Source: Bacteroidia bacterium (GTDB lineage Bacteria; Bacteroidota; Bacteroidia; CAIKAF01). Taken from it: 62,902 nt of DNA. How positions within the stretch are numbered: position 1 is the first letter of the stretch; every line of letters starts with the position of its first letter. The position numbers and the translations under genes were made by a program. The stretch is from contig JAUHWY010000020.1 in assembly GCA_030427255.1 (NCBI GenBank), positions 1 through 62,902 on the forward strand, given 5' to 3'. The notes below the pieces were generated by a model. That model had not been told where the DNA came from. It was given only the letters and a program-made list of their open reading frames with translations, and did no database searches. Shown here piece by piece: positions 5,414 through 33,142 of this stretch.

Positions 5414-5416
5414 GCT

Positions 5417-7281: not shown

Positions 7282-8486
7282 AGTCTTGGGAATAATTCTC
7301 CATTAAACGCCTTCTTTATAAGGCTGTTGAATAGGTTTTCCGTTTTCTGAATTTGCAATTCAGTCTGATGCTTCTGTTCCTCAACCTGCCTTATGCGCTT
7401 CTCAAAGTCCATTTGTAATTCAATTGGTGGAACTATAAATGGAAAGGTTTTGAAGTCTTTCATAGGTGGGAAGTTTGGAATTCCTGCACCTCTTTTTGCG
7501 CCAAAAAACTTGTTTCTAAAGTTCTCTTGCCTAAAATGAAATGTGAAGAAGTGATTAGTCATTACAGACTGGTCTAGAGTCAGTTTAAGCAGAGCTTGAT
7601 TAATAATTCCGGGTCTTGCTTCTTCTGGGATGATTGCCAACTTTCCAAGATAAATCCCAGAACAACTTATGATAATGTCCCCCGGCTTCACTTCAAATCC
7701 TCTCATTTCCTCAAACTTGGATTCATCTATGAAGTATCTGGCGAACGTAAAGTCATTATTGAGAGCGTGATACTGCTCATAAACCAAGTACCCGTCTTCA
7801 ACAAAGATTTTCTTCTTCAAGGCACCACCAAAAGGACCTCTCTTGATTGAGCCTTTCTCTTGCTTAGCAAAGCTCTCAACTGTCATATTCTCCCACCCCT
7901 TCGGATTACGCACCGGATCCCCAAACATATCCAAAAACAAACTCTGCGCCAACGCATCGTACTTTTCAATAAGTGCTTTGGTCTTTTGGCGGTATGCATC
8001 TGCCGTGTCCAATATGGCCGCAATCTTGCGCTGGGTTTCTAGTGGGGGAAGGGGGATTTTAAATTTGGCAACAGTAGCTTTAGATACCTCCTTAAAGGTC
8101 GCTCCATTGCCAAGCGCTTGTAAATTAGGAGTGTATTTCTTGAGTGCGTAATAGAGATAACCAATTTCTACTTCTCCTTTGGGCACTAATGTTTTGAATC
8201 CTTGGTTGGTACATGCATCTTTTGTCGTGATTGCAATGTGTCCAATAGGAGCTCTTGAAGTATATAGTAATGATCCGGCTGGTACCATGGTGGTTGAACA
8301 ACTTTCGTAACCTTTTTCAGTAATCTTCTCTGGGGATTCTGACACGTACTTACTTTCCAGGCTTCCCAAATCTTTGGGTGTAAACCAGTTAATATCGCCG
8401 TTCCAATATTCCGGGTCTTTACGTGATGGAGTTGAACCATTCACAATTTCACATATCTCCGCTATTTCAACCAAAGAGTAACTCAT
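7278..8486 (-). CDS. hsdS: Type I restriction enzyme, specificity subunit
   Basis: 402 residues with the usual two target-recognition domains separated by a helical spacer. TRD1 is about 1-150 and ends in PLPPLETQRKIAAILDTADAYRQK. The central helix (about 155-195) runs into LFLDMFGDPVRNPKGWE, TRD2 occupies about 200-350, and the C-terminal helix contains FNSLIKKAFNGELF. It sets the DNA sequence that HsdM methylates and HsdR restricts. It overlaps hsdM by 4 bp. Confidence 0.93.
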   Translation of the reverse strand: MSYSLVEIAEICEIVNGSTPSRKDPEYWNGDINWFTPKDLGSLESKYVSESPEKITEKGYESCSTTMVPAGSLLYTSRAPIGHIAITTKDACTNQGFKTLVPKGEVEIGYLYYALKKYTPNLQALGNGATFKEVSKATVAKFKIPLPPLETQRKIAAILDTADAYRQKTKALIEKYDALAQSLFLDMFGDPVRNPKGWENMTVESFAKQEKGSIKRGPFGGALKKKIFVEDGYLVYEQYHALNNDFTFARYFIDESKFEEMRGFEVKPGDIIISCSGIYLGKLAIIPEEARPGIINQALLKLTLDQSVMTNHFFTFHFRQENFRNKFFGAKRGAGIPNFPPMKDFKTFPFIVPPIELQMDFEKRIRQVEEQKHQTELQIQKTENLFNSLIKKAFNGELFPRL

Positions 8487-9958
8487 TCAAGCATTGTCTT
8501 TAATGTCTTTAACAATTCTGAGCGATTATTATCAATATCTTCAATCTGCCGAATCAATGCACTAGGACTCTCAAATTCGACCTCTTCATACTCCACCTCC
8601 TTGTAGCGATTCACACTCAAATCCCAGTCATTGGCTTTAATCTCCTCAATCGGTACCATAAAACTCCGTTCGGTGCGGGCCCTATCCATTTCGGCCTTAA
8701 GCTTGGCCCAGCGTTCCAGTAGATCCGGTATGTCGTTTTCCTTTACCTCACTGCGCTTGTCGTCCAAACTGTAGCCGTCGTGGTGCATGTCGTAAAACCA
8801 TACATGATCCGTTCCTCCCGAATTGGTTTTGGTAAATATCAATATAGCAGTACTTACCCCGGCATAAGGCTTAAACACCCCACTAGGCATAGAGATCACG
8901 GCATCTAGTTTTTGCTTTTCTACCAACTCCCTGCGTATGGCTTTGTGGGCAGTGGAAGACCCAAATTGCACCCCTTGCGGCACAATAACCGCAGCACGCC
9001 CGCCGGTTTTGAGCATGCGCAACATCAAACCCAAAAACAACAATTCGGTTTTCTTGGTCTTTACGGTCTTAAGTATGGAACTTTCGACCGCATCATAATC
9101 CAAGCTGCCTGTAAAGGGAGGATTGGCAAGAATAAGCGAAAACCGGTCCCTCATGTCGGCATTGCTTTCGCTTAAGGCGTCTTTGGGCACCAAATGTGGG
9201 TTCTTTATGCCGTGCAATTGCAGGTTCATGGCACCAATACGGATCATGGTGCTGTCGAACTCTACTCCGGTAAACATGTTCTTGTCGTAATGCGCACGAA
9301 ACGCCTTTTCCGAAAACCAGTCTTTGTGGTGGTTGTGGATGTACTCTCCGGCGGCTACCAAAAAGCCGGCGGTCCCGCAGGATGGATCGCAAATGGTATC
9401 GTCTTTTTTCGGAGCCATCATTTCCACCATCATTTGAATGATGTGGCGGGGCGTCCGAAATTGTCCGTTCTCTCCGGCCGAAGCGATTTTGCTCAGCATG
9501 TATTCATACAAGTCGCCTTTGGTGTCGCGGTCGTGCATCTCTATGGCATCCATCATTTGCACCACTTGATCCAACAACCGGGGAGTTCCTATCATAAAGG
9601 TGGCCCCTTTCATGAACTCGCCAAACACGCCCCCTTCTTCTCCCAGGGTTTTCATGTGGTCAAACACCGTCATTCCTTCAATGGAAGGTCTGGTAAATAG
9701 CTCAAACATGCGCTCAGGTTCCAGATGCTTAAAGCGGTTCCATCTAAAGGGATAAAACTTCTCTTCATAAATCGGTTCCTTAATGGGCAGTTTGGTTATG
9801 CTGGCTTGCTTCTCCTTCAGTTGCTGGGTTTCATCCAATCGGCGGATAAACAAAAGGAAAGTAAACTGCTCAATTACGGTCAATGGATTGCTTATTCCAC
9901 CCGTCCAAAAGGTATTCCAAATTTTGTCTACCTGCGCCTTCAGTTCTCCTGTAATCAT
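8483..9958 (-). CDS. hsdM: Type I restriction enzyme, N6-adenine methyltransferase subunit
   Basis: 491 residues. An N-terminal HsdM_N helical domain is followed by the methyltransferase domain with motif I DPSCGTAGFL at 191-200 (SAM binding) and catalytic motif IV NPPF at 279-282. It methylates adenine in the site chosen by HsdS. It is the first gene of the six-gene operon hsdM-hsdS-coiled coil-DUF1643-DUF1016-hsdR; all junctions are 4-bp overlaps or a 3-bp gap. The start at 9958 (MITGELKAQVDKIW) fits the family. Confidence 0.95.
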   Translation of the reverse strand: MITGELKAQVDKIWNTFWTGGISNPLTVIEQFTFLLFIRRLDETQQLKEKQASITKLPIKEPIYEEKFYPFRWNRFKHLEPERMFELFTRPSIEGMTVFDHMKTLGEEGGVFGEFMKGATFMIGTPRLLDQVVQMMDAIEMHDRDTKGDLYEYMLSKIASAGENGQFRTPRHIIQMMVEMMAPKKDDTICDPSCGTAGFLVAAGEYIHNHHKDWFSEKAFRAHYDKNMFTGVEFDSTMIRIGAMNLQLHGIKNPHLVPKDALSESNADMRDRFSLILANPPFTGSLDYDAVESSILKTVKTKKTELLFLGLMLRMLKTGGRAAVIVPQGVQFGSSTAHKAIRRELVEKQKLDAVISMPSGVFKPYAGVSTAILIFTKTNSGGTDHVWFYDMHHDGYSLDDKRSEVKENDIPDLLERWAKLKAEMDRARTERSFMVPIEEIKANDWDLSVNRYKEVEYEEVEFESPSALIRQIEDIDNNRSELLKTLKTMLE

Positions 9959-10045
9959 AGCTGTTCTATTTTGCTTGGCCTATGGAATAAGTCTCGCATG
10001 GGCTCTTGTGCATCAAATGGTTGGTCGGTATGGTGTCTTGTTGTC

Positions 10046-10062
10046 ATTTTCAATCAAATATA
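10046..10062 (-). promoter_or_regulatory. Candidate -7 promoter element of the hsdM operon
   Basis: On the minus strand the 17-mer TATATTTGATTGAAAAT contains TATATTTG, matching the Bacteroidota -7 consensus TAnnTTTG, about 90 bp before hsdM. The identical 17-mer occurs at 43746-43762, upstream of hipB. No clear -33 TTG element is seen. Confidence 0.4.
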
Positions 10063-10156
10063 GTCAGTTTGAATTTTCATAGTTTAATTTGATTCAAGAA
10101 TTCGGCCATATCCCCAAAGGAAGGTCAAAAAATGGGCACACCGGGTACAGAAACCC

Positions 10157-10424
10157 TACCGCTACAATTGTAGCCAATCCGCCACAATGGTAGCATTCCT
10201 TGACCCAAAATGCCTTCCCAAAACACACTTCTTTGAACGATAGATTTTGGTTTTTGGGCGGCCGGGCGCGCCCTTACTGTAAGTCCTCAGCGGTCAAGCA
10301 CCGTGGGCTAAGGCCTACGGGGTCCCACTCTAAGGAGTGGGCCTCCGCCGCCTAAGCCCACGGGCTTTCCCGCTTCCGGGCTTTCCGTGCGGTCGCTGCC
10401 GCAGTGCATCGCCCATGGGCAAAG
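10157..10424. repeat. Dispersed repeat family A, copy 2
   Basis: Same order as copy 1: CTACAATTGTAG, a second imperfect palindrome (CCACAATGGTAG), the ATGCCTTCCC spacer, and the GC-rich structured part with CCGTGGGCT/AGCCCACGG arms. It lies upstream of hsdM, so copies 1 and 2 bracket the complete restriction operon in direct orientation. Confidence 0.85.
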
Positions 10425-10574
10425 CGTTCTCGCCTTTGGTTTTGCGCTAAAAATCGCTTTGTTTGCCCAGCTTTTTCAAAAGGGTGTTTTTTTGAATTAG
10501 GGAGGGGCTCCCCCCCCCTCCCCCCCGGTTATCCTACCCCCTTAGCCGGTTCTTGAACCACTTTGGGGCATGCC

Positions 10575-11165
10575 CAACCGAAGCCGGCTTAAGTCCAAAC
10601 AAAGCTGGCTCAGGCCTAACTGAAGCAGAGCCAAGTTTAACCGAAGCTGACTCAGGTTTAACCGAAGCGGAGTTAAGTCTAACAGAAGCTGGCTCAAGGC
10701 CAACCGAAGCGAAGCCAAGTTTAACCGAAGCTGACTCAGGTTTAACCGAAGCTGACTCAGGTTTAACCGAAGCGAAGTCAAGTCTAACAGAAGCTGGCTC
10801 AAGTTTAACAGAAGCTGGCTTAGGTTTAACCGAAGTGGAGTCAAGTCCAAACGAAGTGAAGGCAAGATTAACCGAAGCTGGGTCAAGTTCAACAGAAGCT
10901 GACTCAAGTTCACCAGAAGCTGACTCAAGTTCACCAGAAGCTGACTCAAGTTCACCAGAAGCTGACTCAAGTTCACCAGAAGCTGGCTTAACTTAAACCA
11001 AAGCTGGCCCAAGTTCAACCGAAGCAGGGCCAAGTCCAACCCAAGCGAAGCCAAGTTTGACCGAAGCTGGCTCAGGCCTAACCTAAGCTGGCTCAAGTTT
11101 AACCGAAGCGGAGTCAAGGCGAACAGAAGCTGGCTCAAGCCAAACCGAAGTGGAGGTAAGTCCAA
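10575..11165. repeat. 21-bp minisatellite, about 28 units
   Basis: Tandem degenerate units of the type AACCGAAGCTGACTCAGGTT, period 21 bp. Four units at 10904-10985 are nearly identical. Because 21 is a multiple of 3, frames stay open on both strands. The plus strand (10553-10996) encodes seven-residue LTEADSG/SPEADSS repeats; the minus strand (10542-11165) encodes LNLSQLL/LRLNLSQ repeats. Neither frame has a recognisable domain, signal peptide or convincing ribosome binding site. I call it a repeat; an expressed repetitive protein cannot be excluded. A homopolymer C tract precedes it at 10510-10527. Confidence 0.85.
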
Positions 11166-11995
11166 CTGAGGTCGGGGCTAACGCAAATCATGCCAAGGCG
11201 AAATCAACAAAACCATGGACACTTGAATTTGCCAAAAATCCAGCATACTGCTTTTATAAGAACTGAAAGAGGTGAACCGCCTCAACCCATAACGGATCTT
11301 TAAAATCAAATACAAATTGTGTAATTTTCGCTTAAGTAAAAGAAAGAGGTGTTTGTCTACATTTCTGAGCTTACGGGTTATTCGCTCTAAAAGATAAACC
11401 CATTCTTTTTTTTACACACTTTTTTGGGACAGTATCCACGATAGTCTTGAAAACATGCCGCCTGTGTTATTCGCAAACAAGCTTCTCGGTAAATGAGTTT
11501 TCTTAGGCATACCTACACAAAGAAAGAGTGCACACTTAATGCATGCACTCCTCTTTCTTCGTGGCCAGTATTTATTCCTGGTGAGTTGCTCTCCAGCAGA
11601 GCTCACTTCCGCTTCAATACTGACACTGCCAAGGTCTCAACTATTTTTTATATTTTCAACATGTCCAGTTTAGGGGAAGCTCACAGGAGCGATGGACCAC
11701 AAGTATAAAAATAGAAATCATTCTTTATGAATTGATGGTATTCCCTTTTGAGAAAAGGCAAGTTTTTCACCCATACTCCGATACGCTTTCTAAAGCATCT
11801 TTGGAAATACCTTGCTATTCCCTTTTTGAGGTGCTTTGGGAAAATTGCGTGCGCTTATTCAGCGTTCTTACACGGTGTAGGCTTCCCCTTTGGAAGGTTT
11901 TCAGTGATACTGCTATCCTATTTTCTACTCGTGGTCTTTCCATCGGTTTAACTTCGTCCCAACTTTAGCAAATATTTGGGACAAGGGTTGCTTTT
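11166..11995. other. Non-coding accessory spacer with IS and hairpin scars
   Basis: No credible gene. At 11411-11436 the sequence TACACACTTTTTTGGGACAG resembles an IS256-type terminal repeat; its inverse relative is at 20095-20120. GGGTTA..TAAACCC before a T run (about 11378-11420) resembles a terminator. Two adjacent hairpins stand at 11520-11559 and 11566-11622. At 11956-11982 GTCCCAA/TTGGGAC forms a hairpin just after the stop of the radical SAM gene, without a T run. Short frames at 11732-11968 show no family. Confidence 0.5.
11520..11622. other. Two consecutive stem-loops, function unknown
   Basis: Stem 1: AAGAAAGA+GTGCA (11520-11532) pairs with TGCAC+TCTTTCTT (11544-11559) with a 3-nt bulge. 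Stem 2: CAGTATT (11566-11572) pairs with AATACTG (11616-11622) and encloses GTGAG/CTCAC and CTCT/AGAG. The fold is compact enough for a structured RNA or a recombination site, but I match it to no known family. Confidence 0.35.
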
Positions 11996-13996
11996 TTATA
12001 CGCTTGCTGTCCTTTTGATTTTAGCTACTTCTGCTTCAAAGTCATAGGTCAGGGTTAAGTCCTTGAACTGGTCTTCCTTAATCAGTCTGTCAAAATAGTG
12101 TTTGGTCTTTTTGTAGTTTAAATCTTTCTCTTTTACATCTTTCACGTCCTCTCGCTTGATAGTGTAGTGCTTTAGTAATTCAAGGATTTTCTTGTTCTTG
12201 GTTTTTGATTGATAATCAGAAAAGTCGTTTGATTCGATAAGTTCAAAGGCAAATTCCTTTTCCTTTCCTGTAAGAGAGTAGTAAACTTTTCTCCATTCAT
12301 CTGTCAATCCTAGACCCTCAAAGAAGTATCTGTAAACAATATATGTTTCAGGCATATGGAGAATTTCTTGAAACTCGGTTAAGTCTTTCCCAAATGCTTT
12401 TTCAAAGAAACTTCTTCCTGGCGCAACAATACCTTTTGTTACGTTTAAAACTGACTGAATGGCTCGAATGTATTTCCTATTCCATTTTTTACCTATATAG
12501 TTTCTGTCTTTTGCTTCTTCGCCAAAAAGAGGAATATACTTCATTGGGAAAGAAAAAATGTGAATGTCCAATTCTTCACCCAAATCAACATTTAGTTTAA
12601 GTCGTTTATAAAGCTCTTCGGGAGTGTCTTTAAAGTTATAAAGTATATAATTTGAAAGTTCCTTGATTTCATATTTTGCAGCAAGACGAACAGCATTTTC
12701 ATATTGTTTTTTCATTCCCCAATAATCAAAGGCAATTCTTAATGGACGAATAGGAATTTCACTCATTAGTTTCATTAGCTCGTCCGTAACATATCTAGCG
12801 TCTGTTCCCTGATTGAAGTCAACAAATCTTTGCTTAGGCACTTTTGGTCTATATCGCTCATATGTCTCTTTGACTTCATCATACGCTTGTAAAATCCGGT
12901 CCTTTGTTGTGGTTTCGATTTTTATTAAACCATTAGCCACTAAAACATCATAAAATTTCTGTTGCCGTTCACCTCTTAATCTTTTTAATAAATCGTGAAG
13001 CAAGCGGTAACTTCTTTTTACATAAGCTTTATCGTTCAGCCCTTTTTTGAGATTATTAATAGCAATTTCTAGCTGATTTGGTTCAATGTAAGTTGCTCCT
13101 TTGTAAAACCCCATATCTTTAATTTCCTGAATTATTTCAGGAAATTTAGGAGAAGCCAGTACATTGTTGTCCATTAAAAGTAAATGCTGTTGCTCTCCGT
13201 ATATTTCTTTGATTTCAGCAAACTTATCAATAGTGTCTATTTTTGGTTTGTATGTAGGTTCTAAGATTGGAACGGAACAAAATGCGCATTTTCTAGTGCA
13301 TCCTTTTGTCATAAAAGTAAAATAGGCACTTCCTGTTGGATAAATATAATCTATCTCATCAAGTATGGAGTAATCAAGAGGTAAGTTGTCAACGATAAGT
13401 TTTTTGGCTTTTGGTAAATCAGGGTCTAACATTCCGGGTTTATCCAGAAGTCCTTCGTGTGGTTTTATGCCTGTTTCTTCTTCTACTTCCTTATGTAACA
13501 ATGAAGCCAATACACCTCCAACCATTATTTGGTCTTGGCTTTTTACAAGATGCTTAGCATAGTGAATAGCTTCAATAGTTATTTTCCAATAAAAGGTAAA
13601 TAGTGTAGTAACATAAATTCTATCCCACTTCGGAAAATTATCGTAATCTTTCTTTCTGTAAGTGTCAGCAAATGAATAAATAGCGTTATGCAGCAAAGCA
13701 TTATATTTTGAAATGCCTAAGTCAAGTTCTTCCAATACGGTAGATTTCCTTGATTTGATAAAATCTCGAATGAGTGCGAAGCTATTTTTCCATTCTCGTT
13801 CCTTATCTATTTTGTAAAATTTATCGATGCAATTTTCAGTCATTTGGTCAAGAACCAAATCCTTTAAATTACCTTTAAAAAATTTCACATTGTCACCTAA
13901 CATTTTGTGATAGGTAGCAATCTTCATAAGTCCTATCGGGGGATACTTATTACGGTATTTAGGCTCTATTAAGAGTATATTTCTTTTTTTACTCAT
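11996..13996 (-). CDS. Radical SAM protein of a NurA-HerA-GHKL operon
   Basis: 666 residues. The N-terminus (about 1-170) looks like the Rossmann region of B12-binding radical SAM enzymes (ILLIEPKYRNKYPPIGLMKIATYHKM..VKFF, then IMVGGVLAS). The radical SAM centre is C233-x3-C237-x2-C240 in KGCTRKCAFCSVP, giving a 4Fe-4S cluster for SAM cleavage. The C-terminal 250 residues are helical, charged and unassigned. The substrate is unknown. It overlaps the GHKL gene by 4 bp and is the last gene of the operon. Base composition is more AT-rich than the metabolic genes, consistent with acquisition. Confidence 0.8.
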   Translation of the reverse strand: MSKKRNILLIEPKYRNKYPPIGLMKIATYHKMLGDNVKFFKGNLKDLVLDQMTENCIDKFYKIDKEREWKNSFALIRDFIKSRKSTVLEELDLGISKYNALLHNAIYSFADTYRKKDYDNFPKWDRIYVTTLFTFYWKITIEAIHYAKHLVKSQDQIMVGGVLASLLHKEVEEETGIKPHEGLLDKPGMLDPDLPKAKKLIVDNLPLDYSILDEIDYIYPTGSAYFTFMTKGCTRKCAFCSVPILEPTYKPKIDTIDKFAEIKEIYGEQQHLLLMDNNVLASPKFPEIIQEIKDMGFYKGATYIEPNQLEIAINNLKKGLNDKAYVKRSYRLLHDLLKRLRGERQQKFYDVLVANGLIKIETTTKDRILQAYDEVKETYERYRPKVPKQRFVDFNQGTDARYVTDELMKLMSEIPIRPLRIAFDYWGMKKQYENAVRLAAKYEIKELSNYILYNFKDTPEELYKRLKLNVDLGEELDIHIFSFPMKYIPLFGEEAKDRNYIGKKWNRKYIRAIQSVLNVTKGIVAPGRSFFEKAFGKDLTEFQEILHMPETYIVYRYFFEGLGLTDEWRKVYYSLTGKEKEFAFELIESNDFSDYQSKTKNKKILELLKHYTIKREDVKDVKEKDLNYKKTKHYFDRLIKEDQFKDLTLTYDFEAEVAKIKRTASV

Positions 13997-15546
13997 TTCA
14001 ATTCTTCTTCAATTTTTTGAATCAAACTTTCAGCGGTTGCAGGGTCAAGAACATCACGTATGATGGCAAATATTCTTCCTGCAAATTTTCGTTGCTCTTT
14101 ATTCAAGCTACTCAAATTATCAGTTCTGAATTTGGGTTTTTCGGTCTCAGGTTCGGGTTCTGCAACATCAACATCTGACGAAGAAACTGGCTGGGCAACA
14201 CGGTTCAAAATTTTTTGAACTGGAATAGCCGAACTATTCGTTGCTTCTTGCTCTATCTTTTCAATTTTCTTCTTTGCTTTTAAAGCGTCCTCTTTCTTTT
14301 TGTCAAAACGCTCTTTGTATTCCTGATGCTCCTTTTTATCAGTAAAGCCTTGCGACTGCTTTTTCTTATATTCTTCTTCAAAGTTTTTAAGTTCCTCTAT
14401 CTTTCTAACAGAACTGTTAATTTCAGAAGCCGTGTAGCAAAGTTTGTAAATATGAGTGTGAAAATAGTTTTTGAGTTTTTTCTCAAATTCAAAATATGTG
14501 TCGTTTTCAGTAAAATAGTCCCTTCTTGAATTTGGAATTAAATCAGGATGCGCTCCGTGAACTTCACCAAAAAAATAGAAGTGAAAACGTCTGTCTCTTT
14601 GAAGTTTTAACAAGGTGTATTCATCTCCAACTTGAATGTTTGCTTTTCTAAGTCTAAAACCCCTTGTATAATTAACTTGATTTAAAGATTGGTTCTTTTC
14701 GGAAACACTATGCCAACCCCAAAAAAGTAGTTTTCCATCACTGGCATATTCTTTAAAGAATACAATGTCTATGACCTCATCTTCTTTCTTTTTATCATTT
14801 TCGTCTCCTTTGTAAATAATGGTTGAATAACCTTTAAAAATTTGCTCAGAATTAAGATAGATGCGGTATTCATCAAACGAAAAGTTATCATTCTTTAGTT
14901 CTTTGATAATTTCCGATTTGTAAATGAATCGAGTAGGGAATGGCAAGGGTGCTACCATAGCCAAATATTTTTCAATTTCCTTCCTATCTAATAAATCATC
15001 ATTGGTTACATCTTCAAGTATGACTTTGAAATAGTGTGAGTCTTCTGATTCTTTGGTAGTTTCTAAAGTTGTTACCTTTCTAATTACAGAAATGGCATCT
15101 TCTTTTTCACTTCTGTTATTTATGATGTTCTTTAGTTGGGCAGCATCCCAAACCAATCTTGATTTTGTGTTCTCTCCTGCAAATGAGGTCTCAAAAATTA
15201 ATTTATCACAATATGCCAAACCTCCAAGTCTTCCAATACCTCTAAAGCCTTTGTCCACGCCTCTTTGTTTGGTTGACTGTGCGATGTTCTGAAGGATTGG
15301 TTGAACTTGGCTTTGTGAAATCCCTGTCGCATTATCTTCGATTGTTATGGTTCTTTTTTCGGAATCAATTTTTATATGTATTTCTCCTTCATTCGGAGTA
15401 ATTAAGTTCTCTCTTACTGCTTTATCTATTTGGTCAGCAGAGTTTTGAATATACTCACGGAATATAAATCGGGAATCCTCATACATCCCAATCGTAAGCG
15501 ATTCAATTACATCCTTACCTATAACTGGTTTAAACTGTTTATCCAT
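13993..15546 (-). CDS. GHKL / Hsp90-like ATPase
   Basis: 517 residues. The N-terminal Bergerat-fold ATPase shows REYIQNSADQ (N box, N35), EDNATGIS (G1 box, 71-77) and GFRGIGRLGGLAYCD (G2 box, about 100-114). A middle domain of about 200 residues resembles the Hsp90/MutL-type transducer. Residues about 385-470 are a charged coiled coil, followed by an acidic/proline linker and a short conserved tail. It overlaps HerA by 8 bp at its start and the radical SAM gene by 4 bp. Such ATPases act as ATP-gated clamps or remodelers; its client is unknown and the HerA/NurA partners suggest DNA. Confidence 0.85.
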   Translation of the reverse strand: MDKQFKPVIGKDVIESLTIGMYEDSRFIFREYIQNSADQIDKAVRENLITPNEGEIHIKIDSEKRTITIEDNATGISQSQVQPILQNIAQSTKQRGVDKGFRGIGRLGGLAYCDKLIFETSFAGENTKSRLVWDAAQLKNIINNRSEKEDAISVIRKVTTLETTKESEDSHYFKVILEDVTNDDLLDRKEIEKYLAMVAPLPFPTRFIYKSEIIKELKNDNFSFDEYRIYLNSEQIFKGYSTIIYKGDENDKKKEDEVIDIVFFKEYASDGKLLFWGWHSVSEKNQSLNQVNYTRGFRLRKANIQVGDEYTLLKLQRDRRFHFYFFGEVHGAHPDLIPNSRRDYFTENDTYFEFEKKLKNYFHTHIYKLCYTASEINSSVRKIEELKNFEEEYKKKQSQGFTDKKEHQEYKERFDKKKEDALKAKKKIEKIEQEATNSSAIPVQKILNRVAQPVSSSDVDVAEPEPETEKPKFRTDNLSSLNKEQRKFAGRIFAIIRDVLDPATAESLIQKIEEELK

Positions 15547-17197
15547 TTTTAAATTGCTTGTAAATCGGTCTTGGGAATTTTATGTTCAATAACGACCTGA
15601 AAACAGGGTTTTGAACTACATACTCACCTTGCTTCAATCTTGTTAGCATTGATTTGTAAACGGGTGGAACATATTGATAATCTGGTTTGGAAACCTCTAT
15701 AGCATTGGTTCTTCCGTATGCGTGTGTAGCGCAGTTTCCTTTTACACGGTCGTGAATATCGCTTTTGAATTGTTCAGCAGAAAACAAGATGATTCCCAAT
15801 GAACGTCCTCTTTCCGTTATATCAAGTAACTGTCTCAAAATAGGTGAACTTTTAGGAACTTCTTTTGATGCGTATTTGTTCAATTCATCAATGAATATCA
15901 CAATTTTTGAAGGAATATCTGCTTCGCTTCTATCGTATGCCTGTCCAAGTTTTAATTCATAAATCGAACGCATCACGTCTCCGAAAACAAATCCTTGAGT
16001 TTCTTCGTCAAGTTTTGCTACATCAATTACGTAAACATCATTTTTCTTAATGTTTAAAATTGAATCTTTAAGCCTTGTTTCATTGTCCTTTGGCTTACTA
16101 CTCAATGAGTTTGAAAATATGGTTGTTTTTTCTATGGTTTTTCTGAAAAGTCGGTAGAATTTTCTCCAACTCAATACAGTAATTTCTTTGTCTTTACCTG
16201 TTGCTCCTGCTTTTGTATGTTCGTAAACTTCATTCAGAAGTTCATTCCAATTTGTAATTCCGTTGAAACCTCCTTGACCTGTGGCTATATAATTCACTAT
16301 AGATTCCATAGTTTGATTAGGGTCGTCAACATTGGAGAAAAGTAAGTCAATGCTCTCTTTATCATCTTCAAAGATGTATTTGTAAAGTTCAGCCTTACCG
16401 AGTTCCATTTGACTTTTTACATCTCTGCCATAGGTCGATGAAACTATATCTTTTGAGTAAGGGTAAAAATATTTTACATTTTGAAATGGTGTAGTGCTTA
16501 AGTCAAGCATTTTATATATGCTCTTGTCATCTTCTGTAAGTTCTTCATTAGGTTCATCTATGGCCAATAAATCACGTCCTTTTACGTTCAATAACACATA
16601 GGCAACAGATTCACCATTATCTTTTCCAAGATATTGGTCTTGAATAGCTTTAAGTAAAAACATTGCATAGGATGTTTTTGAAGCTAAACCTGAAATTCCT
16701 GAAATGTTCAAATGCGCTCCTTCAGGACCAATGAGAAACTGCGAATTGAAATGAACTGGAATTGTAATTTGGTCGGGCTCTTCATACATTTCAATGTAGC
16801 CTGACGGTAGCGGGTTTTTGATGTCTTTAAGTCCAAGGGCTTCTTTTACATCATCTTCACTTGCAAGACTAACATAAGATCCATCTAAAACGGGTGTGTA
16901 TATGCCTTGTGAATTTCCAACTACTTTCGCCCTCACATAATTCATCCCAATTCGTTGTGTGTATTGTTGATAGTTAACATCACCGAAATCACTCGAAATA
17001 TAGCCTGCTAAAAAACTGGAATTATCTGTTAAATGAGAAATTTCCTCAACTACACCAAAGGTGATTGAGTTTTTAATGTGGTTTACCTTAATTACATCAA
17101 AGGGTTTTATGATGAGTTCTTTGTCTGTCCAAAAGAAAAACTCATCTACGGTTGTAGGGACTTTTTCAGTGGCTATTATTTTTCCTATTTGTTTCAT
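15539..17197 (-). CDS. HerA-like (DUF87 family) hexameric ATPase/translocase
   Basis: 552 residues. The N-terminal beta-rich HAS-barrel-like domain (about 1-150) is followed by a FtsK/HerA-type ATPase core. Walker A is the variant NISGISGLASKTSYAM (about 165-179), with Ser where Gly of GKT is usual, a form I associate with a HerA-like subfamily. Walker B is KIVIFIDELN. The late arginine-rich region (GRTNAIEVSKPDYQYVPP) fits the fold. HerA pumps DNA for the NurA nuclease in end resection and in several defence systems. It is separated from the NurA-like gene by 8 bp and overlaps the GHKL gene. Confidence 0.88.
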   Translation of the reverse strand: MKQIGKIIATEKVPTTVDEFFFWTDKELIIKPFDVIKVNHIKNSITFGVVEEISHLTDNSSFLAGYISSDFGDVNYQQYTQRIGMNYVRAKVVGNSQGIYTPVLDGSYVSLASEDDVKEALGLKDIKNPLPSGYIEMYEEPDQITIPVHFNSQFLIGPEGAHLNISGISGLASKTSYAMFLLKAIQDQYLGKDNGESVAYVLLNVKGRDLLAIDEPNEELTEDDKSIYKMLDLSTTPFQNVKYFYPYSKDIVSSTYGRDVKSQMELGKAELYKYIFEDDKESIDLLFSNVDDPNQTMESIVNYIATGQGGFNGITNWNELLNEVYEHTKAGATGKDKEITVLSWRKFYRLFRKTIEKTTIFSNSLSSKPKDNETRLKDSILNIKKNDVYVIDVAKLDEETQGFVFGDVMRSIYELKLGQAYDRSEADIPSKIVIFIDELNKYASKEVPKSSPILRQLLDITERGRSLGIILFSAEQFKSDIHDRVKGNCATHAYGRTNAIEVSKPDYQYVPPVYKSMLTRLKQGEYVVQNPVFRSLLNIKFPRPIYKQFKNG

Positions 17198-17205
17198 TCT
17201 GTTAT

Positions 17206-18390
17206 TTAAAATAAGTTTAAGAAGTGGATGTCGCTCAAATATTTACTTTTCAAAAAGAGTTCGGTCAGGTAAACAGGATAAAGATGGTTTGCCCACCTAC
17301 TATCCTTTCCATAGCAAACAGGATTTCTTTCATTGATTATGTTTGCTGTTATCACATCAACAAGGTCAGATTCCAAGCCATATTCATTCTCATTTTCTGT
17401 GATTAATATCTTCTCAATTTTTACAATCCCCGCAAAAGGGCTTTCCGTATGTTTAGAATCTCTAATTCTAACATACCAAACACTGTATTTGTAATCGCCC
17501 AAATAAGACCATTTGTCACGGTCATGTTGAAACATAAAAGCAGGAGTTCTGTGATATAAAGGCAATTTTGCCAATGCTGCTGCATTGCTTTTTCCACTTC
17601 TGTCTTTGCTAAATTCAGGATTGAAAAGTTTTGAAACTCCAATAACCCAACGGTAATTATTCTTGATTTTGGAAAGTTCTTTATACTCTCCTGTTTTCAT
17701 TGGTTTATATTGTAAGGAACCGTCTTTTAATAAATAGCTGTTTTCATTGAGAAGATTTTTAGCAGTTAGACTGGATACAATTTTCTTTTCACTATCCACC
17801 ATTTCGTCTTGAATTGCAGCAATTCCTAAATGCTCATATTTTAACTCCTTCGTATCTTGATTTGCCTTTGAGGAATAGCTAAGAACATTTGAAAACTTGA
17901 TTCCTGCTCTTTTTACTCTTTCTACGTTGTTTATTTTTTCTTTTAAATTATTGAAGAACAACTCCGTATTTCTTGTTTCAGGGTTTGCTTCTGTAGGAAG
18001 TGAAATAACAAGATTGTTTTCTAATTCTTTACATTTAAATTGATTCGGAGATTGTCTTTCGCAACAGGCGACTCCAATCTGCCCTGCCATAATTGGGAAA
18101 ATTCGTTTGTTGATTTCAATGTCATCTACTTTATATGTTCGCCTTGACCCGTCTAGAAAGTAATTGAACAATGGCTCTGCGTTTGATAGTTGTTTTGCCT
18201 TTTGGGAAATGTCTTTTGTTTGTTTTAATGAGGTATCAGTTTCTCCGTAACGGTCTTTAAGTAAAGTAAAATTTTGAGATTCTTCGTAGTTGATGGTAGG
18301 AACTCGTAATTCCTCGTCAGCACAATACCTGTAGGAATCGTAACAAATTCCGTTTGTAGCATCTTCTAATAGTTTTCGAATATTTCTCAT
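17206..18390 (-). CDS. NurA-like 5'-3' nuclease domain protein
   Basis: 394 residues from the ATG at 18390 (a TTG codon just before it is a less likely start). The NurA pattern is visible: YFLDGSRRTY at about residues 78-87 gives the first catalytic Asp, YLLKDGSLQY at about 219-228 the second, and a conserved C-terminal RWANHLYPVYLTELFLK element. Together with the HerA partner 8 bp downstream this is a NurA-HerA pair. It is the first gene of the four-gene operon. Its leader begins at the attC-like junction at 18651. Confidence 0.75.
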   Translation of the reverse strand: MRNIRKLLEDATNGICYDSYRYCADEELRVPTINYEESQNFTLLKDRYGETDTSLKQTKDISQKAKQLSNAEPLFNYFLDGSRRTYKVDDIEINKRIFPIMAGQIGVACCERQSPNQFKCKELENNLVISLPTEANPETRNTELFFNNLKEKINNVERVKRAGIKFSNVLSYSSKANQDTKELKYEHLGIAAIQDEMVDSEKKIVSSLTAKNLLNENSYLLKDGSLQYKPMKTGEYKELSKIKNNYRWVIGVSKLFNPEFSKDRSGKSNAAALAKLPLYHRTPAFMFQHDRDKWSYLGDYKYSVWYVRIRDSKHTESPFAGIVKIEKILITENENEYGLESDLVDVITANIINERNPVCYGKDSRWANHLYPVYLTELFLKSKYLSDIHFLNLF

Positions 18391-18643
18391 CAAATTAAAA
18401 TCTTCAAATGTAGATAATAGTCTCTGTTAGTGGGGCAAAAAAATGGCTCTTTTGGCTTTGTGAAGCGTAGGCTTGTGTGTCGTGAAAAGCCAAATGTGCC
18501 AATTGAGCGTAGGCAGAAAAAAAAAAATGCGGGTCGGGCAAAAATTAAATCTTTCCGTCTCGGTTCGTTTTCGGTCTTCATTATTTCTTTTTCTTTTGTC
18601 ATTGTCCGTTACTTTGTTTAAGGTCGGTGTCTTTCTACCATTA
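18391..18643 (-). promoter_or_regulatory. Leader of the NurA-HerA-GHKL-radical SAM operon
   Basis: About 250 bp without a credible gene between the attC-like site and the NurA-like start. It is pyrimidine-rich on the plus strand and should hold the operon promoter. I cannot point to a clear -33/-7 pair. Short overlapping frames here have biased, low-complexity translations. Confidence 0.35.
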
Positions 18644-18713
18644 CCCACAACGGTTCGGCTATGTGCCGTGCCGACGTTTAGGAGGCATGGACACATAGCC
18701 TTTGTTGGCTGCA
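18644..18713 (-). repeat. attC-like recombination site (cassette DUF3825 / operon junction)
   Basis: Minus strand, about 70 nt: GCAGCCAAC, then GGCTATGTGTCC..GGCACATAGCC (the CTATGTG/CACATAG arms pair), then GAACCGTTGTGGG. The outer GCAGCCAAC (18704-18712) is the exact reverse complement of GTTGGCTGC, the first bases of the DUF3825 cassette at 19583-19591. This is the signature of a site split across a cassette by attI x attC insertion. Confidence 0.75.
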
Positions 18714-18733
18714 GGATGAATCCTAATTCATAA

Positions 18734-19561
18734 TCATTCTCCACTTGCCTCCGGATTCTCTATCTCTTCTTTATTTAATTGACGAGAAAATTCCTTCCAT
18801 GTATCAATCAACCAAGGAGGTAATTGGTCGTGTCTTTTCACAGCAACCCTTGCATTGGCATATGGCATATGAGGGGCCAATACAGTTCTTACCAATAAAT
18901 TATTTGGGTTTAATTGAATAGGAGCAACTAGATCAGGCATTTCTGCAATATTTTCTCTGCTTCGCAAATAAAGCGGAACGATGTATTGCATCTTGCCATA
19001 GTACCAATATGGTATTTGAAGGTTTCGATTTAAAGACCACTGAATAGCCCCTGCAACTGCACACATTTGTGCCACTGGAGGAGCATCCCTTAAAAACTCT
19101 ACTCTTTCAAAATTATCTCCAAGAATATGATCATGCATCATCACTATTTCTACTCCATTTGGAATTTCGGGTTCATCTGGAGGTTGTGGAGCTGATGGTA
19201 AATCTGGTGCAGATATTTGGGAACCAACAGTCCTTAAATACCAAGGTTGCCTATTCTCTATTTGGTTTCTTTCAATTACCAAATAAATAGGAGTTCCATA
19301 TCTAGTCTGAAGATTGCCTGCTGTTACATACCATTGGTTTTCACCAAGAGTAAATAACCCTTGTTCAATGCTCCATGGGACTTGAACAGCCAAATACTTT
19401 GTTAAGGCAAAATTGTCATTACCCCATTCCTCACTTAATGCAATCGAATTAAGTTGGTCCAATACTTCCTCCGGGGTATAAATGAAATTATGGAACCTGC
19501 TTACCACTCTATTAGTGAAAGGGCTTCCTAATGCATCCAAAAGTTCTTCCTTATCAACCAT
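18734..19561 (-). CDS. DUF3825-like protein, cassette gene
   Basis: 275 residues. The stretch IQWSLNRNLQIPYWYYGKMQYIVPLYLRSRE (about 168-200) and the earlier PWYLRTVGSQ match my recollection of DUF3825, a family of unknown function, sometimes fused to nucleic-acid-related domains. No signal peptide or membrane segment. The gene fills its cassette: 30 bp separate its start from the attI-like junction at 19591, and its stop is 21 bp from the attC-like site. It has no promoter of its own that I can see. Confidence 0.65.
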   Translation of the reverse strand: MVDKEELLDALGSPFTNRVVSRFHNFIYTPEEVLDQLNSIALSEEWGNDNFALTKYLAVQVPWSIEQGLFTLGENQWYVTAGNLQTRYGTPIYLVIERNQIENRQPWYLRTVGSQISAPDLPSAPQPPDEPEIPNGVEIVMMHDHILGDNFERVEFLRDAPPVAQMCAVAGAIQWSLNRNLQIPYWYYGKMQYIVPLYLRSRENIAEMPDLVAPIQLNPNNLLVRTVLAPHMPYANARVAVKRHDQLPPWLIDTWKEFSRQLNKEEIENPEASGE

Positions 19562-19590
19562 TGTTTTATGTTTTTAATTCTTGCAGCCAA

Positions 19591-20058
19591 CTCACTTATA
19601 AGAACCATAAATTAACATCCATCCCACAACCCTCTGCTGCGTTAGTACGACTCCGTTGATATTTATTTTACTAGTGAAATGTACACAAAAAACTCTAAAG
19701 ATCATCAAAAGGACTACGCATTTGTTCCAAAGCGCCTACTCACATGGGTGTAAATCTCTGTCGTGCGTGAGCTCTTGTGACCCAATAGCTCTTGAATGTA
19801 CCACAAATCGGTACTCGCCTCAGGCAAATGCCTCGCATAGCTGTCCATTAGCAAATGAAGCGTTGCTTTCCTGTTGATTGATGTTTAACCCACCGCCCAC
19901 GGTTTCCCCCACACGGAGCTTAAGCGCCCCGGCGTAGGCCAATTAGCCTGCCGCAGTGGGCTGCTCAGCCGCTGCGGGGGTAAGAGCGACCACAGGAAGC
20001 TCCTTGCCCACGCTTAGCGGCGTAGCTGGCCCACAAGGCAGCTAATGGCCGGAGACGG
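19591..20058. repeat. Integron-head repeat family B, copy 1
   Basis: About 470 bp. The first ~100 bp (19591-19694, TAAGAACCATAAATTAACAT..TGTACACAA) is shared with copies at 22308, 35058 and 62602 and stands where attI would be, next to the first cassette. Then comes a tyrosine recombinase C-terminal remnant, then a GC-rich palindromic tail (about 19900-20058) shared only with copy 3. Confidence 0.85.
19695..19880 (-). pseudogene. Tyrosine recombinase (integrase) C-terminal remnant
   Basis: Read on the minus strand the segment gives LHLLMDSYARHLPEAST, then [20 protein letters not shown], then THVSRR. It contains the LGH-x-SS box and the nucleophile Tyr context (TTEIYTH) of XerC/D- and IntI-type recombinases. 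The HxxR box reads HLLM, losing the Arg, and a 2-bp deletion relative to copies 3 and 4 shifts the frame after VSRR. Only about 55 residues remain, so it is inactive. Its direction is the same as the cassette genes after it. Confidence 0.8.
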
Positions 20059-20349
20059 ATGAGGCGCCCTCTACACTGACTTCGCTACTAAATCGGTAGT
20101 GTCTAAAAAAGTGTGTAAAGGGTTTTCTGTAGAGCGATTATTCAATATAAGTAATTAGCTGGTTGTTTAGGCCTCTTAGGGGGGGGCAATTTGCTCCAGT
20201 ACATCCATTGGTACAGTTTCCAGCGATGCACGCCGCCCATCTTTCTGCACATATGGTGAAGCTGAAAAATCCGCTTTACCCATAGCTCTAATGGAAAGCT
20301 TGGCAACTCCCCCGGTGAAGCCTGCCCTGCGCGCAGCCGAAGGGTGCAA
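20059..20349. other. Spacer with IS256-like end and unassigned short frame
   Basis: At 20092-20125 GGTAGTGTCTAAAAAAGTGT resembles an IS256-family terminal repeat; a partial copy is at 22453. No transposase is present. A 61-codon minus-strand frame (20176-20361) starts inside the Fic attC-like palindrome; it matches no family I know and is probably not a gene. Confidence 0.4.
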
Positions 20350-20403
20350 CAGCGGTTTCATTCTAGGCCTTGCAGGCCGAACGAAATCTTAGTTGTTACC
20401 AGC
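20350..20403 (-). repeat. attC-like site after the fic cassette
   Basis: GTTACCAGC on the plus strand (20395-20403) is the reverse complement of GCTGGTAAC at 21622-21630, that is, of the first bases of the fic cassette. The site overlaps the last Fic codons (PAGNN-stop). Inside, TTTCATTC/GAACGAAA and AGGCCT/AGGCC arms form a stem with a bulge. The distal core is degenerate. Confidence 0.55.
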
Positions 20404-21507
20404 TGGCATTCCTATCAGTTCATAACTTGTACTTCTTCCTCCTGCTGATTCTTTTTGTAAGATTCCTTTTTCAATCAAGTCGTTAATGTCCCTAACTGCA
20501 GAATCTTTCGAGCATTTTGCAATTTTTGCCCATTTAGAAGATGTTAACTTTCCGTCAAAACCATCCATTAATTTATTCAATAATTTTCTTTGACGGTCAT
20601 TAATTGCAGTATCTATGTGTTTTTGCCAAAAATCAGCTTTGAATAACACTCTTGTAAGTACTGAATCTGTCGATTTTAGAGCGTTAGTCAAACAATTTAA
20701 GAACCAAGAAATCCATTCGGTTATGTCTAAATTTCCTTTTTGAGTCTTTTCCAATATCTCATAATATTGCTTTCTTTCCAAACTAATCTGTGCTGACATG
20801 CTATAGAAACGTTGATTACTCTTGTCGGACTGGGCAAGAAGCATATCTGTCAATGCTCTAGTTATTCTACCGTTTCCATCTTCAAAGGGGTGAATAGTCA
20901 CAAACCATAAGTGTGCTATCGAAGCTTTAATTACCAAATCAACCTTACTGTTATTAAACCAATCTATAAATCGGGTCATTTCTTTTTCCACCAAATCATA
21001 GTCAGGAGCTTGAAAATGCACTTTTTCTTTTCCCATTGCTCCAGATACAACCTGCATTGGTCCTGTAGTATCTTTTCTCCAGTCTGCTACCGTAATTTTG
21101 TACATTCCACTTCTTCCAGTCGGAAATAAGGCAGCATGCCAATCAAAAAGTCTATCAGCTGTTAAAGGCTCAAAGCATCTTTGAGTTGCGTCAAGCATCA
21201 TTTCAACTATTCCTTCTACATTCCTGTCAGATTCAACTGCTCCCGCTATTTCCATTCCTAATCTGCGAGCAATTGATGAACGCACTTGGTCTGGATTAAG
21301 AAATTCACCCTCAATCTCAGATGATTTTAATACATCAAGAGTCAGCGTATCAAGTAGTGCCTCATTTCTCAAATCGAAACCTAATGTTTCCATTTTTCCA
21401 ATAAGTCTGCCCTGTAAATTTCTTGCCTCACTTAATATTTCCAAGAAATCATTACTGTTCCAAGTAAATGCTGGCCAATTGTCTTTTTGATGTATAAAAG
21501 TTTCCAT
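20389..21507 (-). CDS. Fic family protein with DUF4172-type N-terminus
   Basis: 372 residues from the ATG at 21507 (METFIHQKDNWPAFTW, the usual DUF4172 start; two in-frame ATGs lie upstream). An inhibitory helix motif SSEIEG is at about 62-67. The Fic core motif HPFEDGNGR at about 206-214 is complete with catalytic His. A C-terminal winged-helix-like part (SSKWAKIAKCSKDSAVRDINDLIEKGIL) follows. Fic enzymes AMPylate or otherwise modify proteins from ATP; the inhibitory helix keeps them self-restrained. The target is unknown. The gene is a cassette: its 3' end runs into an attC-like site. Confidence 0.9.
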   Translation of the reverse strand: METFIHQKDNWPAFTWNSNDFLEILSEARNLQGRLIGKMETLGFDLRNEALLDTLTLDVLKSSEIEGEFLNPDQVRSSIARRLGMEIAGAVESDRNVEGIVEMMLDATQRCFEPLTADRLFDWHAALFPTGRSGMYKITVADWRKDTTGPMQVVSGAMGKEKVHFQAPDYDLVEKEMTRFIDWFNNSKVDLVIKASIAHLWFVTIHPFEDGNGRITRALTDMLLAQSDKSNQRFYSMSAQISLERKQYYEILEKTQKGNLDITEWISWFLNCLTNALKSTDSVLTRVLFKADFWQKHIDTAINDRQRKLLNKLMDGFDGKLTSSKWAKIAKCSKDSAVRDINDLIEKGILQKESAGGRSTSYELIGMPAGNN

Positions 21508-21621
21508 TCGATGCATTTTTCGCAACGAAAATAATCTTTATTCGTAGCAAATCAAAATTAATCGTTGCACAATCTGCATTAAATGCCCTCGTTATTCGTT
21601 GCACTGTCGTTTCTTCTGCTT

Positions 21622-21755
21622 GCTGGTAACGGTTTGGCTATGGCTTGTAGCGGTTTTGAAGCACTTTCCTGTCCACCTAAACCAAAGCTGGCTACGCAGC
21701 GAAAACCTTTCTGGTGGCCGTTCACCCGCCATAAGCTATATGCGTTGTTGTGGTG
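21622..21755 (-). repeat. attC-like site between the membrane-protein and fic cassettes
   Basis: About 134 nt, long like a VCR. The outer plus-strand GTTGTGGTG (21747-21755) is the reverse complement of CACCACAAC at 22299-22307, the start of the preceding cassette. Inner arms GGCTATGGC and GCCATAAGC plus GGTTTT/AAAACC pair imperfectly. The other end, GCTGGTAAC|CGTT style, starts the fic cassette. Confidence 0.7.
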
Positions 21756-21775
21756 TCGTTTTTTTTCATTTTTCT

Positions 21776-22285
21776 TCACGGAAATTTCAGTCCGAGTTCA
21801 TTTACTTCTTTGTCTACTCTCACCCATTCAACTCTTTTGTCAATGTCCTTTTCTACGGGACTAACTATCATAAACAAGTCAGTCAGGTAAATTACTTCAA
21901 CAGTTCGTTTGTTGTACCCTAAGGCTCCAACGTCTTGCATTTGAAATTCAACTTTCTTAAAGGTCAAATGTCCATTTTGATAAATTACCTTTTGAGTTCT
22001 CCAAGCGGATGCAGAAAATGCAATTTTTAAAGGTCCGATTATTAAAATTCCAATTAAAGTCAATGTCGGAATTGTCGAGCCGATTATTTTCCATTTTCTT
22101 GTTTTAAAAGTCCATAGATTCCAAATCAAGGTCAGAGGAGCCAACATCATAATTCCAAAATAGGTAAATGATTTTATCGCTTGGCTTTTAATCTCGAATG
22201 AAGTTAGTCCGTCAAGGGCAAAGAGCAGAATTGTCAGAATGAAAATTCCATTCAATATTGGCGATATGTACTTCTTAATCGTCAT
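21776..22285 (-). CDS. Small membrane protein, cassette gene
   Basis: 169 residues, not recognised. Three to four hydrophobic segments: about 8-28 (ILNGIFILTILLFALDGLT), 38-58 (SFTYFGIMMLAPLTLIWNL) and 70-90 (IGSTIPTLTLIGILIIGPL). A charged C-terminal half (about 95-169) contains KKVEFQMQDVGALGYNKRTVEVIYLTD. It probably sits in the inner membrane. The start is 22 bp from the attI-like junction of head copy 2 and the stop lies 20 bp from the attC-like site. Confidence 0.65.
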   Translation of the reverse strand: MTIKKYISPILNGIFILTILLFALDGLTSFEIKSQAIKSFTYFGIMMLAPLTLIWNLWTFKTRKWKIIGSTIPTLTLIGILIIGPLKIAFSASAWRTQKVIYQNGHLTFKKVEFQMQDVGALGYNKRTVEVIYLTDLFMIVSPVEKDIDKRVEWVRVDKEVNELGLKFP

Positions 22286-22307
22286 TTTTTTTCAAATGCA
22301 CCACAAC

Positions 22308-22416
22308 TTACTTATAAGAACCATAAATTAACATCCATCCCACAACCCTCTGCTGCGTTAGTACGACTCCGTTGATGTTTATTCTACTTGTGAAATGTAC
22401 ACAAAAAACTCTAAAG
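22308..22416. repeat. Integron-head repeat family B, copy 2 (truncated)
   Basis: Carries the shared ~100-bp attI-like segment up to CTCTAAAG, the recombinase stop region, and is then cut by TGTAGTGGTCAGCCAAAACT at 22417, an IS3-type end. No recombinase sequence is left. Confidence 0.85.
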
Positions 22417-22823
22417 TGTAGTGGTCAGCCAAAACTAGACAACAAAATCCGGTAGTGTCTAAAAAGAGTCTGGAAACAGAGGAGAGCATTTATCCCATAG
22501 CTTCCAAAAACTCCAAAGAGTGGCCCTCCCGATGCTCCATGCCGGCCCTTTGCCTGCACTTCGATCGGGACCTGCGGCCCGGCCCTTCCCCAACCCATAA
22601 AATCTAAAAACTCCAAAGAGTGGCCCTCCGGACCCACCGGAGGCCTCCTGACGCTTTGGTCAGGACTAAAAGCGCCCGCAGCAGCCGGTACTGAGTGGCA
22701 GGCCGAGGAGGCGGTCCCCTTTTCGGGAAAGCCTCCACAGGCTGCCACGAAATGCCGGGTGCAAGGGAGGCCGCAGGCAAGGGCCGGATAGATTCCATAT
22801 ACCTTCCTTGGAACCTGGGCCCG
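22417..22823. repeat. IS scars and GC-rich palindromic repeats
   Basis: An IS3-like end (22417-22445) runs directly into an IS256-like end (GGTAGTGTCTAAAAAG at 22453), nested scars without transposases. A 25-bp block including CTCCAAAGAGTGGCCCTCC occurs twice (22510 and 22610). The rest is GC-rich repeat sequence with no credible gene; a long minus-strand frame spanning this region and preA is a shadow. Confidence 0.5.
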
Positions 22824-22850
22824 CAAAAAAAAGCCACCCGAAGGTGGCTT
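22824..22850 (-). terminator. Terminator of the pyrimidine-degradation operon
   Basis: On the minus strand AAGCCACC-TTCG-GGTGGCTT is followed by a run of eight T. It lies 6 bp after the preA stop codon. Confidence 0.85.
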
Positions 22851-22855
22851 GCCAT

Positions 22856-25518: not shown

Positions 25519-25526
25519 ACCAGAAA

Positions 25527-32760: not shown

Positions 32761-33028
32761 AACCGCTACAATTGTAGCCATTCCGCTACAATTGTAGCAC
32801 CTCTTGATTCAGTAGACTTTCCAAACACAGATTTTCTTGACGGATAGATTTTGTTTTTTGGGCGGCCGGGCGCGCCCTTACTGCAAGTCCTCAGCGGTCA
32901 AGCACCGTGGGCTAAGGCGTACGGGGTCCCCCTCTAAGGAGTGGGCCTCCGCTGCCTAAGCCCACGGGCTTTCCCGCTTCCGGGCTTTCCGAGCGGTCGC
33001 TGCCGCGGGGTACCTTGCCCATTGGGAA
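32761..33028. repeat. Dispersed repeat family A, copy 3
   Basis: Two good CTACAATTGTAG palindromes (32765-32776 and 32786-32797) open the element, followed by the diverged spacer and the nearly identical GC-rich part. It ends in GTACCTTGCCC. It lies beyond the 3' end of a cassette gene that has lost its attC partner. Confidence 0.85.
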
Positions 33029-33142
33029 ATCCCCTTGTACAAATGTGGGCTTCCACAAAACTGGCTTTGGAACACGAAAACCCGCCTATTGCAAATCTGC
33101 TGCTAGCAACTGTTTTTTTTCAATGCTGAGTTTTATAAGAAT

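Follow-up and report, generated by a model that had tools for sequence, protein, structure and literature searches.

A probable mobile conflict cassette joining NurA-HerA to an Hsp90-like ATPase and a radical SAM enzyme

The contig JAUHWY010000020.1 of a Bacteroidia bacterium (assembly GCA_030427255.1), analysed over its whole length of 62,902 nucleotides and called the window below, carries four minus-strand open reading frames (ORFs) at 11996-18390, which encode in this order a NurA-family nuclease, a HerA-type ATPase, a GHKL ATPase of the Hsp90 type and a radical S-adenosylmethionine (SAM) enzyme (rSAM). These proteins retain conserved catalytic motifs and form a fixed operon unit that is mobile and whose rSAM-GHKL core associates with interchangeable partners, and the view that the four-gene set is a mobile conflict cassette is well supported. 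As to its chemistry, our best guess, which we hold tentatively, is that rSAM marks DNA.

Identity of the four proteins

A preliminary description of this DNA had proposed an operon of these four families, and the ORFs together with Pfam, phmmer, profile and structural matches confirmed the assignments, the gene positions and the spacing, namely an 8-bp gap between nurA and herA, an 8-bp overlap between herA and the GHKL gene, and a 4-bp overlap between the latter and the rSAM gene. Because the library matches were weak for NurA and rSAM and Pfam contained none for HerA, the identities were settled by the other evidence described here.

The NurA-family protein (17206..18390, minus strand, 394 aa) gave a weak match to PF09376 (E 4e-4), and its profile recovered NurA in 7f6d, a HerA-NurA structure (E 0.003); the motifs FLDGS (D81) and KDGSL (D224) were kept in at least 95% of 64 homologues. 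The start codon of nurA is the ATG at 18390, the ORF call beginning 3 bp earlier at a TTG from which the NurA residues are numbered. The adjoining protein (15539..17197, minus strand, 552 aa) matched the HerA chain 7f6d_B (phmmer, E 5e-36) and shares with it the unusual Walker A motif NISGISG-x-A-x-KTS, which reads NISGISGLAxKTS in the operon. Its Walker B motif is FIDELNKY, and the catalytic residues K174-T175 and D437-E438 were conserved across homologues, so that a NurA nuclease stands next to a hexameric DNA translocase with Walker A and B motifs, as in NurA-HerA pairs. No Mre11/Rad50 (SbcD/SbcC) genes were found among the window ORFs, nor were any prominent among the recurrent neighbours of related loci; their place is occupied here by the Hsp90-like ATPase and rSAM. 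HerA was the slowest-evolving of the four proteins and GHKL the fastest, and both rSAM (median isoelectric point 8.7) and NurA were basic.

The GHKL protein (13993..15546, minus strand, 517 aa) matched HATPase_c_3 (PF13589, E 3e-9), and its AlphaFold model (pLDDT 87) matched the N-terminal and middle domains of Hsp90 proteins of the TRAP1/HtpG type with a Foldseek E value of about 1e-18. Both a Bergerat ATP site and an Hsp90-type middle domain are thus present, with conserved residues E31, N35, D71, G75, G103, G105 and R342, the last of which lies within the motif PNxRRDYF and by eye resembles the catalytic-arginine loop of Hsp90. The model ends in long C-terminal helices with no evident Hsp90 C-terminal dimerisation domain, a domain-level search of that part not having been made. 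An earlier characterization of this ATPase as Hsp90/MutL-like accordingly stood in its first half; the MutL-type clamp was rejected, as the listed PDB matches of the model were Hsp90s.

The last gene product, rSAM (11996..13996, minus strand, 666 aa), comprises a cobalamin-binding-type N-terminal Rossmann domain and a partial TIM barrel that bears the CxxxCxxC cluster motif of the radical SAM superfamily (C233/C237/C240), invariant among homologues; its match to PF04055 (E 3e-6) was slightly below the curated cut-off. Structural matches of its model (pLDDT 90) included AprD4 (Z 13.5), TsrM (13.2), MgmA (13.0), RimO (11.5) and MiaB (11.4). The label of a B12-type enzyme given in the preliminary description therefore held for the fold: the model supports a cobalamin-enzyme fold, and cobalamin use itself stays putative, since the matches comprise both cobalamin users (TsrM and MgmA) and AprD4, which is not known to use the cofactor.

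Conservation and co-inheritance of the operon

A scan of 84,980 species genomes with an rSAM profile returned 347 relatives, the best 80 of which were taken forward. Among the 54 loci with at least 7.5 kb of upstream sequence, NurA, HerA and GHKL stood beside rSAM in 48, GHKL with another module in five, and none of these in one; because the sampled loci are the relatives closest to the window, the four-gene share may differ in the remaining ones. Median spacings over about 63 loci were +3, -8 and -4, the same succession of one gap and two overlaps as in the window, and the wide recurrence of this order and these overlaps argues against a chance arrangement. Moreover, the pairwise distances of the four proteins correlated with r of 0.65-0.92 over 58 loci, against a permuted maximum of 0.27, which demonstrates co-inheritance of the four genes.

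Two samples of whole classes are less biased than that of the closest relatives. In the class of the window (395 genomes), rSAM occurred in four genomes; HerA of this subfamily was found in these four and in a fifth, where NurA-HerA lies beside an Eco57I-type DNA methylase without rSAM. In the class of a clostridial genome (291 genomes), rSAM occurred in nine, and six of these loci, the query's own included, also encoded NurA and HerA. Among plasmids, a GHKL query recovered the 12 carriers of full rSAM homologues and, beyond them, only a short fragment and HtpG-like matches. Whether the four genes occur together elsewhere, on which the preliminary description had staked its case, was thus answered affirmatively by the locus counts, the mirror-tree analysis and the class-genome counts. 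In genome G350, a methylase stands in place of rSAM. The arrangement of NurA-HerA with an Eco57I-type methylase and neither rSAM nor GHKL lies at 1998-8007 of locus L182 and is possibly a separate restriction-modification (R-M)-like system.

Exchange of modules around the rSAM-GHKL core

The constant core of the loci is the rSAM-GHKL pair, around which the other genes vary. In addition to the NurA-HerA-GHKL-rSAM form of the window, a second form has GHKL2 and F4 inserted, F4 being a family of proteins some 330 aa long that are encoded next to GHKL2 and rSAM (8871-9995 in locus L017), for which no match was obtained in Pfam, NCBIfam, PADLOC or PDB. A third form, present in a subset of loci, has F9-F5-GHKL inserted and is considered Menshen-related because F9 is a homologue of NsnB (E 1e-63) and F5 a homologue of NsnC (E 4e-9). 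The fourth, found on alphaproteobacterial plasmids, consists of DGQHR, rSAM and GHKL genes, frequently accompanied by ParB-like and SNF2 genes and, at three loci, by a PIN-like gene and another GHKL; the DGQHR protein (TIGR03187, E 2e-41) also matches DpdB and DndB models, and its gene overlaps or abuts that of rSAM. Clostridial loci mix these forms: G582 combines NurA-HerA-GHKL with rSAM, a second GHKL and one additional gene, and G548 has ParB-like, SNF2 and rSAM genes and no GHKL. Mapped on the rSAM tree, the accessory modules show repeated changes, at least 9 in the case of F4 with NurA-HerA. Since forms without NurA-HerA exist, rSAM rather than HerA is the hub.

A set made up of a ParB-like gene, an SNF2 helicase gene, the gene of the small F12 protein and a second ParB-like gene recurs with rSAM, both on plasmids of alphaproteobacteria and in a single clostridial genome (15275-20345 in L013 and 8038-13403 in L200), possibly as a second system sharing this enzyme.

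In three phages (L139, L141 and L142), short rSAM homologues (phrog_9298) had genes for DNA methyltransferase and PAPS reductase nearby, and they may serve counter-defence; a fourth phage with a short rSAM (vir215) had no such neighbours among its annotated genes. In Marinitoga camini virus 1, a short rSAM gene faces a HerA-NurA pair.

Distribution and genomic setting

Loci with rSAM were distributed over phyla that include Bacteroidota, Bacillota, Thermodesulfobacteriota, Ignavibacteriota, Acidobacteriota, Kiritimatiellota, Lentisphaerota, Planctomycetota, Deferribacterota, Melainabacteria and a metagenome-assembled genome (MAG) of Woesearchaeota, some MAG contigs possibly being mis-binned, such as the Woesearchaeota one (L047) and the near-identical L041 and L042, which are assigned to different phyla. 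A contaminant or an oddity of a single lineage was rejected on account of the at least 10 phyla and the co-inherited trees. All four genes were also found on a scaffold from a fecal phage preparation (L011) and on two predicted viral contigs of IMG/VR (L095 and L096); in the viral contigs an alignment query retrieved relatives and a single rSAM sequence as query retrieved none. No DNA-level relative of the one rSAM searched was detected in E. coli. The operon was absent from all five congeners searched, and several broken copies were observed, for instance in L019, L084 and L181, where the GHKL or HerA frame is split, a pattern that would be expected of dispensable accessory systems.

Within the window, the operon occupies a variable slot (10403..22720) bounded on one side by HsdM of a type I R-M locus and on the other by a conserved PreA-like gene. 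The nearest congener (G004) aligns with the window at 8577-10402 (HsdM) and 22720-26122 (the PreA side) and has a different 12.5-kb filling in between, containing a type IIG R-M, a DUF262/Orf5-type protein, PDC-M24A/B and PDC-S13; the slot is a defence hotspot. The patchy occurrence, the exchange of slot contents in G004 and the module changes all speak for a mobile and variable context, and not for the vertical housekeeping setting that the preliminary description had named as the outcome adverse to its proposal.

The operon block has 34% GC, against about 40-50% for most of the surrounding chromosome, and this low value counts, with the absence from congeners and the occurrence on predicted viral contigs, as a sign of mobility. 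As initially described, it lies between a type I restriction locus and cassette genes. The former, at 792-9958, includes three accessory genes at 4226-7281, of which one strongly matches the PADLOC candidate PDC-S02 and one is weakly JetC-like. On the opposite flank, a DUF3825 gene (18734-19561) lies immediately upstream of the operon on the same strand, and an adjoining Fic gene (20389-21525), whose product strongly matches SoFic of PADLOC (E 3e-47), is a candidate abortive-infection gene. Directly 5' of nurA, the minus-strand sequence TACATTTG at 18405..18412 reads as a possible Bacteroidota-type -7 promoter box (consensus TAnnTTTG); it may be due to chance. The number of sites in a promoter scan was no higher than in shuffles. 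A tandem array at 10576-11150 consists of about 27 copies of 21-bp units and produces long artificial ORFs. Three copies of a repeat about 250 bp long (87-93% identical) lie at 520-786, 10158-10423 and 32761-33029, one of them at the left edge of the slot, and pieces of it recur at two places in G004; these repeats are possible recombination anchors of the hotspot. A second dispersed family (83-96% identical) lies at 19571-20069, 22302-22416, 35041-35590 and 62601-62753, near the right side of the slot among other places, and also in G004.

Proposed function and its alternatives

We favour, while placing it somewhat below an even chance, a restriction-like mobile anti-invader system: rSAM would mark DNA, and DNA that lacks the mark would be destroyed by HerA-NurA. 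In this scheme, rSAM together with an Hsp90-like ATPase, acting as an ATP-gated clamp or loader, would chemically alter host DNA, joined in other lineages by a DNA-site protein of the DndB/ParB type. HerA, gated by its own Hsp90-like ATPase, would load on unmarked DNA such as that of an incoming phage or plasmid and pass it to NurA for degradation. The substrate of rSAM would accordingly be DNA, the trigger the absence of a mark, and the target phage or plasmid DNA. The scheme is favoured because DndB/DpdB- and ParB-like proteins are partners of rSAM, because a methylase replaces rSAM in G350, and because the phage homologues lie near methyltransferase genes. The link to defence is good though indirect, as it derives from the congener hotspot, the NsnB/NsnC and DndB/DpdB homologues, the phage-preparation scaffold and viral contigs, and the plasmid forms.

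Several observations weigh against this scheme. No sequence-specificity subunit is obvious in the standard four-gene form, the enzymes whose folds come closest to rSAM have sugars, peptides and proteins as substrates besides tRNA, and distant plasmid relatives of HerA adjoin SbcD-SbcC, a repair-type neighbourhood that points to repair ancestry. The NurA-HerA-GHKL-rSAM set corresponds to no system in PADLOC, so that a defence role is assigned by association. Furthermore, a direct test of proximity to known defence genes, which the preliminary description had suggested checking, showed no enrichment: the flanks of 20 loci (137 proteins) yielded 61 PADLOC families at 1e-10 against 103 for 123 same-contig control proteins, a comparison in which few proteins matched on either side, one or two R-M loci probably inflated the control count, and power was low given the matches listed (25 families, many of them redundant). 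This test lends no support to residence in large defence islands, and the anti-phage link is one of context.

An unlikely rival is a trigger model in line with the preliminary description, in which a protein modification or small molecule made by rSAM licenses or activates NurA-HerA upon infection with no DNA mark, the Hsp90-like ATPase sensing the invader and gating the nuclease. Radical SAM enzymes often modify peptides or proteins, MgmA and RimO being two of the closest structural matches. Every swappable module comes with a GHKL of its own (NurA-HerA-GHKL, GHKL-F4, NsnB-NsnC-GHKL and PIN-GHKL), as if the gate were shared, and GHKL evolves fastest, as a sensor might. This proposal, however, leaves unexplained the DndB/DpdB- and ParB-type partners of rSAM and the phage homologues near methyltransferase genes. 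These same phage genes are cited for an improbable type IV-like reading, in which rSAM-GHKL recognises or chemically strips hypermodified phage DNA and thereby enables its degradation by NurA-HerA; it dispenses with a separate specificity gene, but self-marking accounts at least equally well for the DndB/DpdB-type partner that recurs.

A rather unlikely alternative is a repair or end-processing complex, in which NurA-HerA would resect ends, the Hsp90-like clamp would replace Mre11-Rad50 and rSAM would repair a lesion. Spore photoproduct lyase is a radical SAM enzyme that repairs a DNA lesion, HerA and NurA match the 7f6d pair, distant HerA relatives have the SbcD-SbcC neighbours mentioned above, and HerA-NurA end resection in archaea is reported in PMC12977600; nevertheless, such a complex is hard to reconcile with presence in four of 395 class genomes, absence from all five congeners, a mobile slot, frequent module swaps and several broken copies. 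Finally, a function in competition or maintenance of plasmids or integrative and conjugative elements, instead of anti-phage defence, would account for the related forms on conjugative plasmids and for the relaxase/coupling-protein-like genes (F14 and F15, so identified from sequence) near a few loci. We consider it very improbable, as the contigs that carry most of the sampled loci are chromosomal and lack a complete set of conjugation genes, and it would in any case be compatible with defence.

A broader and more doubtful extension of the marking scheme is a new immunity class, in which rSAM with Hsp90-like clamps writes or reads a novel DNA mark, swappable nucleases (NurA-HerA, PIN, NsnB-NsnC and F4) destroy unmarked DNA, and phages carry a stripped-down enzyme as counter-defence. 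If the marking scheme is right, radical chemistry and an Hsp90-type gate would enter prokaryotic immunity, a DNA modification would await discovery in accessible hosts such as Bacteroidota and Clostridia, the orphan phage radical SAM genes near DNA methyltransferase genes would be accounted for, and HerA-NurA, a known repair engine, would gain a conflict role with defined partners.

Comparison with known systems

In agreement with the preliminary description, no named system was found for the window proteins in Pfam, NCBIfam or PADLOC, and searches of open-access full text turned up no description of the combination; a report elsewhere is possible, as bioRxiv and most subscription journals lay outside that scope. 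Individually, the GHKL protein shares with Hsp90/HtpG/TRAP1 the N-terminal ATPase and middle-domain fold and the conserved ATP-site residues, and differs in its helical, divergent C-terminus without an evident dimerisation domain. Similarly, rSAM has the fold and CxxxCxxC motif of the cobalamin-binding-type enzymes AprD4, TsrM, MgmA and MiaB/RimO at an identity of 10-16%. Prokaryotic viperins are likewise radical SAM enzymes and are tied to antiviral function, but their chains rank lower (Z about 7) and align with the rSAM barrel alone.

Menshen (NsnABC) is related through the NsnB and NsnC homologues inside the operon of a subset of loci, whereas most loci, the window included, lack them; no Nsn match was obtained among the window proteins, and rSAM and GHKL match no PADLOC model. 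The Dnd and Dpd modification systems share the DGQHR (DndB/DpdB-type) partner with the plasmid rSAM-GHKL form; the window, in contrast, has no DGQHR protein, and no phosphorothioate or 7-deazaguanine biosynthesis genes were found among the window proteins scanned. With the HerA-NurA(-Mre11-Rad50) end-resection machinery the operon has homologous NurA and HerA in common, including the variant Walker A of 7f6d, but it lacks SbcD/SbcC, contains the Hsp90-like ATPase and rSAM, and is mobile and patchy. The HerA/FtsK anti-invader capture systems, described in a reappraisal of Dnd (PMC10853773) and in work on BREX-related systems (PMC12839542), likewise combine a HerA-type motor and a nuclease with variable sensory modules in a mobile setting, although no DndF/G, ORC/Cdc6 ATPase or PglZ was found in the four-gene form; both papers leave NurA, GHKL and Hsp90 unmentioned and refer to radical SAM solely with regard to DndC. 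Among HerA-nuclease anti-invader systems the operon counts as a new variant; proof of the DNA mark would make it categorically new.

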